From Halichondria panicea (Eukaryota; Porifera; Demospongiae; Suberitida; Halichondriidae): a DNA stretch of 64,000 nt. Location of the stretch: positions 6,762,066-6,826,065 of the forward strand of contig NC_087386.1 in the NCBI RefSeq assembly GCF_963675165.1, read 5' to 3'. Made by a program: the position numbers and the translations under genes. The notes beneath the pieces are model-generated. The model saw nothing but the letters and a program-made list of their open reading frames with translations, did not search any database and had not been told where the DNA came from. This document shows positions 57,601-63,600 of this stretch, in pieces (position 1 is the first letter of the stretch; every line of letters begins with the position of its first letter).

Positions 57601-60600
57601 CGAATACAAAGACAGGAAGATCTCAAAGACTAGGTACAGAGGGTTGCATGTAGTAGGGGGGTTGCATGTAGTAGGGGGGTTGCATATAGCAGGGGGGTTG
57701 CATATAGTAGGGGGGTTGCATATAGCAGGGAGTGGGAGGGGGGCGAGTGGTCACATGCATGTTGGATAGAACTAGTAGCTGCCATTAGCCGTGTCTGCAC
57801 ACCAGTGGCTGCCATTGGCCGCGCCTGCACACCAGTGGCTGCCATTAGTTACTGTGTCTATTCTCTCTCGCTCAGTTTCTTGGACGACTCATTTCGTAAG
57901 AATCTTGAAAGTGCTCTGAGATTCGGCAACCCTCTTCTGGTTCAGGTAACGTTGGAACTACACACACTAGCTTGTTGTACTTTGACCCTCTAATTGTTCA
58001 CAGGATGTTGAGAGTTATGACCCTATATTGAACCCTGTGCTCAACCGTGAGGTCCGTAAGACAGGTGGGCGTGTGCTTATCACCCTGGGAGACCAGGACA
58101 TTGACCTGTCACCATCCTTCACCATCTTCCTCTCCACTAGGGACCCCTCTGTGAGTGGGCGGGGCTAATGTGTAGTCATGTATTATTAGTATCGGGAGAG
58201 CCTATAGTAACAAGAGTATAAGTAGCTGTATACCCAGCGTTAAATAAGAGCATCTTTGAACGACCATAACTTTAGTTTCGTTGTCTAATTTTATGATTTT
58301 CTGAAAGCTAGCTTAGAGAGGCCTTTCAGATTATATGTAATTAGGCCTGTTTTTAACAAAGTACCATGCGGCTACAGTACCATGCGGCTACAGTACCATG
58401 CGGCTACAGTACCATGCGGCTATAGTACCATGCGGCTATAGTACCATGCGGCTATAGTACCATGCGGCTACAGTACCATGCGGCTACAGTACCATGCGGC
58501 TACAGTACCATGCGGCTAAAGTACCATGCGGCTATAGTACCATGCGGCTATAGTACCATGCGGCTATAGTACCATGCGGCTATAGTACCATGCGGCTACA
58601 GTACCATGCGGCTACAGTACCATGCGGCTACAGTACCATGCGGCTACAGTACCATGCGGCTACAGTACCATGCGGCTACAGTACCATGCGGCTATAATAC
58701 CATGCGGCTACAGTACCATGCGGCTACAGTACCATGCGGCTACAGTACCATGCGGCTATAGGAAGTTCTATCATAATATTATAGTGTTTGTGAGTGTGTA
58801 TGAAACTCCACCCCCCTCAGGTTGAGTTCCCTCCGGACCTGTGCTCTCGAGTAACCTTTGTGAACTTTACCGTGACCCGAGGCTCCCTCCAGACACAGTG
58901 CCTCAATCAAGTGCTCAAGGCAGAGAGACCAGATGTGGACAAGAAAAGATCTGACCTCCTCAAGCTCCAGGGAGAGTTCTTATTGAGACTACGTCATCTT
59001 GAGCAGTCTCTCCTCCAGGCACTAAACGAGGTTAAAGGTCGTATCCTCGACGATGATAGGTACGCTCACATTGAACTAGCTGTGTCTAAGTTTCCTGTTA
59101 AATATATTTTGGTTGAAATTTATAATATAAATGATCAACTGTTTAAACGTGCTCCTCCACTGCTGTAGGATTATTGGTCAGTTGGAGACCCTAAAGAAGG
59201 AGGCGGCTGAGGTCCAGCGCAAGGTTGATGAGACTGACATTGTGATGGGAGAGGTGGAGACTGTGTCCCAACAATACATGCCTCTGTCATCAGCCTGCTC
59301 CTCGATATACTTCACACTGGAGTCTCTACACCAGGTGAACTAGCTAGCTAGGGGAGACTCAAGCCATAGCTTAATAGCCTCGATATACTTCACACTGGAG
59401 TCTCTACACCAGGTGAACTAGCTAGCTAGGGGAGACTCAAGCCATAGCTTAATAGCCTCGATATACTTCACACTGGAGTCTCTACACCAGGTGAACTAGC
59501 TAGCTAGGGGAGACTCAAGCCATAGCTAGCTGCTTTAATAGCCAGTTTCAAAGCTCAGAGTTACATATGTACTATCTGGATATGTCATAGATTTGCTTGT
59601 ACAATATTCAATATTATTGGATGATAAGTATTTAAACAGTGTCCTTGTTTCCCTGCAGGTTCACTTCTTATACCAATATTCTCTCAAGTTCTTCTTGGAG
59701 ATATTCCAAGTCGTTCTCACAGCCAACCCTCACCTCAAGGGATTGTCTGACCACACAAAGAGACTGCACCACATAACCTATGACATGTTCCAGGTCTGTG
59801 TGTGTGGGTGGTGGGACATTGACTGTGTGGGCAATCTTATATTATACGAGTACCTGGTAGTATAATTATAGTGATGTCATCAATGTCCTGCTCTCACAGA
59901 CTGTGTTCAACCGAGTGTCTCGAGGAATGCTACATGATGACAGGATAGTACTGTCCGTCCTTCTCTGTAGGATCTATCTCAAGGGCATGTCAGAGTGAGT
60001 CATGCTCTGATCCATTTCGTATGTACCTAGTATTGAAATTACCTTGTTCTAGTTGTTTCTAGTTACTCTGAACTTTGTTTGAACTGTGTTTTAACCTACC
60101 CCCCACAGAGAGGATGACTACGTGAGTGAATTTGACTATTTCCTGCGAGGGAAAGAGTCGATGAGATTGGACACTAGGGTCACTCCAATCACTGGCCTGG
60201 ATAAGACCCAGGTAAGAGCTTGATGCTCCCTACCAACTAACGACTACATGTCCCTCCTCCTCCTACAGTTGTTGAGCATGCAGCACTTGTCGAAGCAACT
60301 GAGAGCCTTCGCTAACCTTCCTAACTATGTGTCAGGTAACCCAGAGTTCCTGGACTGGTTGGACTGCTCTAATCCTGAGCTGTCTGTGCCAGAGTGCTGG
60401 GAGACTGACAGAGACCTGTGTAAGTGTGTGTGTTGGGTGTGGGGTGTGTGTGTGTGTGTGGGTGTGGGGGGGGCATGCATGGGTGAAGAGACCTGTGTAA
60501 GTGTAGGTGTGTGGGGGGGGGGCATGCATGGGTGATAGAGACCTGTGTAAGTGTGGGTGTGTGTGTGGGGGGGGGCATGCATGGGTGATAGAGACCTGTG

Positions 60601-63600
60601 TAAGTGTGTGTGTGTGTGGGGGGGGCATGCATGGGTGATAGAGACCTGTGTAAGTGTGGGTGTGGGTGTGGGGGGGGGGCATGCATGGGTGATAGAGACC
60701 TGTGTAAGTGTGTGTGTGTGTGGGGGGGGGCATGCATGGGTGATAGAGACCTGTGTAAGTGTGGGTGTGGGTGTGGGGGGGGGGCATGCATGGGTGATAG
60801 AGACCTGTGTAAGTGTGTGTGTGTGTGGGGGGGGCATGCATGGGTGATAGAGACCTGTGTAAGTGTGGGTGTGGGTGTGGGGGGGGGGCATGCATGGGTG
60901 ATAGAGACCTGTGTAAGTGTGTGTGTGTGTGGGGGGGGCATGCATGGGTGATAGAGACCTGTGTAAGTGTGGGTGTGGGTGTGGGGGGGGGGCATGCATG
61001 GGTGATAGAGACCTGTGTAAGTGTGTGTGTGTGTGGGGGGGGGCATGCATGGGTGATAGAGACCTGTGTAAGTGTGGGTGTGGGTGTGGGGGGGGGGCAT
61101 GCATGGGTGATAGAGACCTGTGTAAGTGTAGGTGTGTGTGTGTGGGGGGCATGCATGGGTGATAGAGACCTGTGTAAGTGTGGGTGTGGGTGTGGGGGGG
61201 GGGCATGCATGGGTGATAGAGACCTGTGTAAGTGTGTGTGTGTGTGGGGGGGGCATGCATGGGTGATAGAGACCTGTGTAAGTGTGTGTGTTGTGGGGGT
61301 GTAGGTGTGTGGGGTGGGGGGCATGCATGGGTGAAGAGACCTGTGTAAGTGTGGGTGTGTGTGTGTGTGGGGGGGGGCATGCATGGGTGATAGAGACCTG
61401 TGTAAGTGTGTGTGTTGTGGGGGTGTAGGTGTGTGGGGGGGGGCATGCATGGGTGATAGAGACCTGTGTAAGTGTGGGTGTGTGTGTGTGTGGGGGGGGG
61501 GCATGCATGGGTGATAGAGACCTGTGTAAGTGTGGGTGTAGGTGTGTGTGGGGGGGGCATGCATGGGTGATAGAGACCTGTGTAAGTGTGTGTGTTGTGG
61601 GGGTGTAGGTGTGTGGGGGGGGGGCATGCATGGGTGATAGAGACCTGTGTAAGTGTGGGTGTGTGTGTGTGTGGGGGGGGGCATGCATGGGTGATAGAGA
61701 CCTGTGTAAGTGTGTGTGTTGTGGGGGTGTAGGTGTGTGGGGTGGGGGGCATGCATGGGTGAAGAGACCTGTGTAAGTGTGGGTGTGTGGGGGGGGGGGG
61801 CATGCATGGGTGATAGAGACCTGTGTAAGTGTGTGTGTGTGGGGGGGGGGGGCATGCATGGGTGATAGAGACCTGTGTAAGTGTAGGTGTGGGGGGGGGG
61901 GCATGCATGGGTGATAGAGACCTGTGTAAGTGTGTGTGTGGGGGGGGGGGGCATGCATGGGTGATAGAGACCTGTGTAAGTGTGGGTGTGGGGGGGGGGC
62001 ATGCATGGGTGACAGAGACCTGTGTAAGTGTAGGTGTGTGTGTGGGGGGGGGGCATGCATGGGTGATAGAGACCTGTGTAAGTGTAGGTGTGTGGGGGGG
62101 GGGCATGCATGGGTGATAGAGACCTGTGTAAGTGTGGGTGTGGGGGGGGGCATGCATGGGTGACAGAGACCTGTGTAAGTGTAGGTGTGTGGGGGGGGGG
62201 CATGCATGGGTGATAGAGACCTGTGTAAGTGTAGGTGTGGGGGGGGGCATGCATGGGTGATAGAGACCTGTGTAAGTGTGGGTGTGTGTGTGGGGGGGGG
62301 GGCATGCATGGGTGATAGAGACCTGTGTAAGTGTGTGTTGTGTGTGTGTGTGTGTGGGGGGGGGGCATGCATGGGTGATAGAGACCTGTGTAAGTGTGGG
62401 TGTGTGGGGGGGAGGGCATGCATGGGTGATAGAGACCTGTGTAAGTGTAGGTGTGTGGGGGGGAGGGCATGCATGGGTGATAGAGACCTGTGTAAGTGTA
62501 GGTGTGTGGGGGGGGGGGGCATGCATGGGTGATAGAGACCTGTGTAAGTGTAGGTGTGTGTGTGTGGGGGGGGGCATGCATGGGTGATAGAGACCTGTGT
62601 AAGTGTGTGTTGTGTGTGTGTGTGTGTGTGGGGGGGGGGGGCATGCATGGGTGATAGAGACCTGTGTAAGTGTGGGTGTGTGTGGGGGTGTGTGTGTGTG
62701 TGTGTGTGTGGGGGGGGGGGCATGCATGGGTGATAGGATGCATTAGTGTTGTCAACTGTCCTCACATTACTATATTTATTGTATCTCCTGCAGCTCCTAT
62801 TGGTCGTGCTGTGTATCGGATGCTGGTGATACAAGCCTTCAGGGCAGACAGGCTGTTAGCTATAGCTTCACATCTGGTCATAGCTGTGTTTGGAGAGGTC
62901 TTCCAACAGCACTCAGAGCAGGAGATGGACCTGGCCAACATCGTGGCTACAGAGGTGTGTGCGTGTGTGTGTGTGTGTGTGTGTATAGTAGGTATTGCTG
63001 GGAAACAGTCGCTTAATTTTCTGCACTTAGTTTAATTTGCCCTGCCATGTGTGTCTGTGTTCACCTTTGTCCCCTGTCATGTCTGTGTTCACCTTTGCCC
63101 CTGCCCCCTGTTACATGTAGGTGAAGTCTAACACGCCCATCCTCCTGTGCTCTGTGACTGGATATGATGCTAGTGGACGAGTGGATGATCTCGCTACTCA
63201 ACAGAGCAAGCAGTGTACATCCATCGCCATTGGTGAGCACTCCATACTAATAGCACAAAGCATGTTCACTGGTACATGTATAAGAGTACATGATTCACAC
63301 CCACTCCACACCACACACACCACCCACTCCACACACACAGGATCTGCGGAGGGCTTCAACCTGGCTGAAAAGGCCATCAACAGTGCTTCAAAGACAGGTC
63401 GCTGGGTACTCTTGAAGAATGTTCATCTGGCTCCACAATGGCTGGTGCAGCTGGAGAAAAAGCTCCACTCTCTGACTCCCCACGCTAGCTTCAGGCTGTT
63501 CCTAACAATGGAGATTAACCCTAAGGTGGCTGAATAAATAGCTAGCCTATTCCCTGTTAGAATATTAACCCTAAGGTGGCTGAATAAATAGCCTCTTTTA

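Follow-up and report, generated by a model that had tools for sequence, protein, structure and literature searches.

A tandem array of 42 exon-end donors in a DYNC1H1 intron of Halichondria panicea, read as a young intronic minisatellite

The 64,000-nucleotide stretch of Halichondria panicea analysed here (RefSeq assembly GCF_963675165.1, contig NC_087386.1, positions 6,762,066 to 6,826,065, forward strand; hereafter the window) carries, at 60410-62741 on the + strand, a tandem array in the cytoplasmic dynein heavy-chain gene DYNC1H1. Each of its 42 units, which are 47-86 nt long, consists of the end of a DYNC1H1 exon, that exon's GTAAGT donor (5' splice site), a GT/G tract and GCATGCATGGGTGA. 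One copy is native, so the other 41 are extra, and all of them are intronic. We read the array as a young, neutral intronic minisatellite that was founded across the exon-intron border and is tolerated since the first donor wins by its proximity across the exon, and we give this reading a probability of roughly 0.72. Its founding event, its youth and the exclusive or nearly exclusive use of the first donor are what we infer from the sequence.

By sequence, the gene is DYNC1H1. Our gene finder was a simple one, trained on the window, and the donor matrix was built from its gene model's own donors. This model places a single dynein gene of 70 exons from 36606 to the window end, with a median intron length of 157 nt and, apart from the array-bearing intron, a longest intron of 760 nt. 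Cytoplasmic dynein 1 heavy chains are the best matches (E 9e-78 or better), and the Pfam domains PF03028 and PF18198 were found. The exon upstream of the array occupies 60269-60419 (151 nt, + strand), and the next exon, supported by both the gene model and the human alignment, occupies 62794-62954 (+ strand). Joined at DLS/PIG (a slash inside a sequence marks the splice junction), the two encode protein whose alignment with human DYNC1H1 (9dgp; near human residue 3981) has no gaps and, over the stretch, an E value of 5.9e-79. We therefore take the GTAAGT of copy 1, at 60420-60425 (+ strand), as the genuine donor, with the exon ending at 60419 and the next one starting at 62794. Automated models ended the upstream exon 6 nt later (the gene model) or 84 nt earlier (an earlier run), and either site would preserve the frame and outscores 60420 by the matrix, but homology favours 60420, which we therefore prefer. 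The initial annotation had named the gene, the exon end, about 42 copies and a GTAAGT in each, all of which the alignment and exact counts confirm; the number that it gave the exon, 67, is not certain, since this is exon 66 in the model starting at 36606.

The copy count of the array is exact. AGAGACCTGTGTAAGTGT occurs 42 times, first at 60410 and last at 62656, GCATGCATGGG also occurs 42 times in the same array, and AGAGACCTG is absent from the + strand of the window outside it. GTAAGT is found 42 times in the array and 17 times elsewhere on that strand. Across the 131.46-Mb genome (39 contigs), a 23-base piece of the unit had at least 17 matches, and every one of those listed lies within the array. 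The exon part of the unit corresponds to the last ~14 nt of the exon (TGACAGAGACCTGT). Between the fixed parts lies a variable GT/G-rich tract that takes 29 distinct versions among the 42 units and closes, after the donor, in a G-run of 3-12. Units 4-16 are mostly an alternation of two types, and unit lengths are not uniformly a multiple of three (remainders of zero, one and two in 16, 12 and 14 units, respectively). The array sequence is strongly G-rich and prone to form quadruplexes, i.e., of an unstable kind, with a G4Hunter score of 1.5 reached at 40% of its positions versus 2.4% in the remaining window. Rfam gave no match at gathering scores. Past the array, the remainder of the intron (62742-62793, + strand) ends in the acceptor TCCTGCAG, which has a matrix score of 3.3 versus a native median of 7.7.

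Among the 42 array donors, only that of copy 1 preserves the open dynein frame. When the downstream donors are joined to the next exon, a stop follows in 41/41 junctions, 44 or 45 codons past the Trp of WETDRD, and the predicted product would therefore be without the D6 domain and everything beyond it. That any downstream copy truncates dynein had been proposed in the initial annotation, which placed the truncation within AAA6; the truncation holds, but the stop precedes the D6 P-loop domain, which Pfam places from residue 57 of the protein after the junction (and its lid from residue 197). The predicted coding outcome demands the first donor. The first donor also defines the 151-nt exon, and the last one (copy 42, 62666-62671, + strand) would leave a 128-nt intron; both sizes are typical of the dynein gene.

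The two ends of the array suggest how it may have been founded. The exon ends in ...ACTGACAGAGACCTGT and the array in ...GGGTGATAGGATGC, with TGAYAG common to both (TGACAG and TGATAG). A duplication between these two short matches would yield the dynein unit structure, and we propose that one between the exon-end TGACAG and the TGATAG in the intron copied the last ~14 nt of the exon together with its donor and the first part of the intron. The base at the unit junction is the intron's T in 36/42 units and the exon's C in two; it is absent in three, and the last unit is cut. An array in a mitochondrial-carrier gene, described below, has a similar pair, TGGTGAG, at its two ends. Expansion and homogenisation of the array would follow through slippage and unequal exchange within the GT/G tract, and its copies would be tolerated because they add intron only. 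The presence of GT in all copies is not evidence of use, since the non-donor half of the unit is equally invariant (the donor part and GCATGCATGGGTGA are each unchanged in 42/42) and recent homogenisation alone would suffice.

Tolerance of so many donors would follow if the spliceosome pairs the upstream acceptor with the first donor across a normal 151-nt exon. In a study of human donors of near-equal strength (PMC9225289), the upstream donor is preferred when splicing is exon-defined and the downstream donor in strictly intron-defined events. Its minigenes with a pair of identical CAG/guaagu donors, spliced under exon definition, used the upstream donor exclusively. A short upstream intron combined with a long downstream intron is a class with heightened upstream preference in that study. 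An intron lengthened by the array should itself favour the first donor, so the array may protect itself once it is long. Two options raised in the initial annotation, that the first donor wins by position and that the array is very young, fit the sequence evidence.

Several observations weigh against this reading. The first is the low matrix score of the native donor, together with the higher-scoring sites in frame or nearby. The native donor (TGT/GTAAGTGT) has a fully consensus intron side and a poor exon side, and by the gene's own matrix it falls below all 68 other donors, although its intron side alone equals or exceeds 55/68. Two competitors are in frame: TCAG/GTAACC at 60336, 84 nt upstream (matrix 4.3 versus 1.0 for the native donor), use of which would remove 28 residues alignable to human dynein, and a GTGTGT 6 nt downstream of the native donor (2.4 versus 1.0). 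Second, the introns of this gene are short (the median of 157 nt given above), and intron definition would favour the last copy with its 128-nt intron. Third, GTAAGT arrays may be somewhat tied to exon ends. There were 20 distinct arrays on C1 to C7 among the matches listed (100 of 387), of which we examined 16, leaving out four of GTAA type. By homology and frame, 5/16 of these start at exon ends, versus 2/16 by automated calls, so a mild enrichment of GTAAGT arrays there is possible.

How weak the native donor is depends on the measure. Its U1 pairing energy is -7.3 versus a median of -8.0, with 26/68 donors weaker and 4 equal. By this measure it is ordinary, and as a whole it is not unusually strong. 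The description "strong" in the initial annotation suits the intron side, which is perfect, but not the exon side or the donor as a whole. All 42 array donors score alike, and GT sites elsewhere in the units outscore the array donor by the matrix (e.g., 13 copies of TAG/GTGTGT). A weak native donor might be helped by the copies, with extra U1 small nuclear ribonucleoproteins (snRNPs) and G-runs downstream supporting exon definition at the first site. The matrix score is in line with this idea, as is the G-run of 3-12 that follows the donor in every unit; a published example is human PAH exon 11 (PMC5933811), whose splicing is helped when U1 binds a short way past the natural donor. However, a single nearby site would do, making 41 unnecessary for donor support, and U1 pairing puts the native donor close to average. 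Both parts of the unit are also equally invariant, and donor arrays are not in excess (see below). We therefore regard help to the native donor as unlikely.

The dynein array stands out more by its extent than by its type. Within the window, a related layout is seen twice more, in the mitochondrial-carrier gene and in a Kir channel gene, and among the genes examined, seven besides dynein have tandem donors that begin at an exon end. In the carrier gene (PF00153; 30453-30565, + strand), one of the seven, the native GTGAGT is followed by four further GTGAG sites. Its first donor (TG/GTGAGTG) joins FW/KG in frame, the other 4/4 give stops, and the exon contributes only TG to the unit. Just past the window, in the next 10 kb (L009:5041-5224), a glutaredoxin-like gene (E 0.00087, below the curated cut-off) has six copies of an exon end with the donor GTAGCC, and the frame test gives stops for 5/5 internal donors. 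Of the other five, one has a CRAL_TRIO_2-like exon (E 0.0019, below the cut-off), is presumably Trio-like and carries 10 donors in units mostly 43 nt long that include ~32 nt of exon sequence; a cadherin gene and a sushi-domain gene carry 8 and 5 donors, respectively, and the last two genes, for which Pfam gave no convincing match, carry 4 and 10. All five have a first donor that joins the next exon in frame, and 31/32 of their internal donors lead to stops. The exon part of the unit shows only partial likeness in one of the seven (L037), where one internal donor leads to no stop. Pooled over the seven genes, internal donors give stops in 40/41 (31/32 + 4/4 + 5/5), and the introns, taken from the first donor, would measure 139 to 940 nt. 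Not counted among the seven is an array on C16, with four AG/GTAAGT copies at a predicted coiled-coil exon, because the next exon was not found there. It is one of two AGGTAAGT arrays; it begins at a predicted exon end, and the other does not.

The Kir channel gene (PF01007, PF17655) is a mirror case, in which 20 copies of a putative acceptor, the start codon and the first codons (27260-28128, - strand; units mostly 44 nt) lie upstream of the coding exon. The frame of the gene-proximal ATG is still open after 300 codons, and those of the other 19 ATGs stop after 32 to 54.

Repeats that carry donors are not in excess by any count we used. In a repeat-unit sample of 264 kb (the window, the adjoining 10 kb and 19 other stretches, with the dynein array as two entries), 14/38 units contained good donors versus 18/38 of the same units reversed. 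The GTAAGT-array pattern had 387 matches versus 518 for the reversed motif; with wider spacing, the numbers were 360 and 347, again without excess. A further donor-repeat count gave 3 versus 26 in the control. Another (3002 versus 4249) was not used, as its printed places were swamped by an unrelated 40-base satellite.

We likewise claim no enrichment at exon ends, because the gene finder placed an exon end at the leading GTAAGT in 2/16 arrays (with one more within 6 nt) and at 10/84 lone GTAAGT sites. The second look by homology covered arrays only, and the finder, having missed arrays that homology revealed, may miss lone sites too. Among the 16 arrays, one (L042) was dropped as an in-frame coding repeat, as read from its sequence, and in ten, two of which are mutual copies, neither visual inspection nor the model showed an exon where the array starts. 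In the 19 stretches away from the locus, the gene finder alone found no array containing both a donor and exon sequence, and one array among them (L011) abuts a predicted donor. The lack of excess of donor-bearing repeats gives no support to selection of the copies as decoys. The suggestion in the initial annotation that they serve as U1-binding decoys is thus unsupported, given that the donor is no better conserved than GCATGCATGGGTGA and that neither donor-bearing repeats nor exon-end arrays are in excess.

Repeats founded on exon ends could also be a recurrent form of intron growth in which the copied donors are functional, either loading U1 along the intron so as to lock the weak native site or shunting part of the dynein transcripts into decay, with copy number as a dial; we consider such a function quite improbable. 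A more specific proposal is regulated poison splicing, in which transcripts spliced at internal copies are lost to nonsense-mediated decay and copy number sets dynein dosage. The early stops at 41/41 internal donors and the typical size of the intron that the last donor leaves would both suit it, but G/T-rich sequence read out of frame should contain stops by chance anyway, and genes of unrelated function share the layout, so we think it very improbable.

There is little chance that the array is an assembly artefact and the real one far shorter or longer. Low-complexity G and GT tracts are difficult to sequence, but the 42 units contain 29 distinct tracts in an ordered block pattern, the array is found at one locus only, and smaller arrays of the same layout exist elsewhere. 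Stepwise (recursive) splicing through the array, with the AG of GATAG/AGACCTGT as acceptor, is scarcely credible: an AG does lie 8 nt ahead of each unit donor and 10/142 array AGs outscore the weakest native acceptor, but the best array AG scores 0.6 (versus 3.3 for the true acceptor and the native median of 7.7), and the 8 nt left at each step would shift the frame.

Other repeats and elements were seen in the window and elsewhere in the genome. Genes such as T-box, Kir, cadherin and DYNC1H1 fit an animal, and the short introns would suit a sponge. A long open frame at 8741-9967 (- strand) contains a reverse-transcriptase domain (PF00078) and is probably a non-LTR (non-long-terminal-repeat) retrotransposon. 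The 40-base satellite, made of GTGAGTGGGTTCAATTCACTAGCAATAGTTTTACGTTCCC-like units, abounds close to the start of C1 and is also present at L015:2438-3751, and an array in the window at 14393-14675 looks distantly like it. A short repeat, CCTCGATTATCCG, occurs at 18058-18105 in the window and at L023:7676-7723 and L023:8451-8498, and may belong to a dispersed mobile element. Two nearly identical GTAAGTGGATAATGTACAC arrays lie ~114 kb apart (C7:2019325-2020123 and C7:2133037-2133914); their flanks are alike too, so they are probably a segmental duplication.

The array matters in two ways. It is a natural experiment in the choice between identical donors by the spliceosome: use of the first copy is predicted by exon definition and use of the last by intron definition, because the first gives a normal exon and the last a normal intron, and the seven shorter arrays in the same genome provide a graded series for this question. 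It also represents a simple way for introns to grow longer with no damage to the exon. In the open-access titles and abstract openings that were searched, no genome-wide class of minisatellites with donors at exon ends is described.

Three known systems invite comparison. In intron gain by tandem genomic duplication (e.g., PMC4974935), as in dynein, duplication multiplies splice signals; there a new intron arises from exon sequence, whereas here an existing intron grows by copies of its own donor. In the dual-specific splice-site array of the polyubiquitin gene UBC (PMC10809524), splice sites likewise recur with each tandem unit. The UBC units are coding and in frame and their sites serve as donor or acceptor, whereas the dynein units are intronic and out of frame, and no AG in the dynein array is as strong as the true acceptor (0.6 versus 3.3, by sequence score only). 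The closest precedent appears to be the minisatellite with multiple donors in human IFI6 (1995), in which two downstream repeat units reportedly act as donors and three mRNA species result. In both arrays, tandem units tens of bases long, each bearing a donor consensus, extend from a real exon end. In IFI6, alternative use reportedly leads to protein isoforms, whereas the internal dynein donors would lead to stops in 41/41 cases, and the dynein units bear ~14 nt of exon, vary in length out of frame and number 42.

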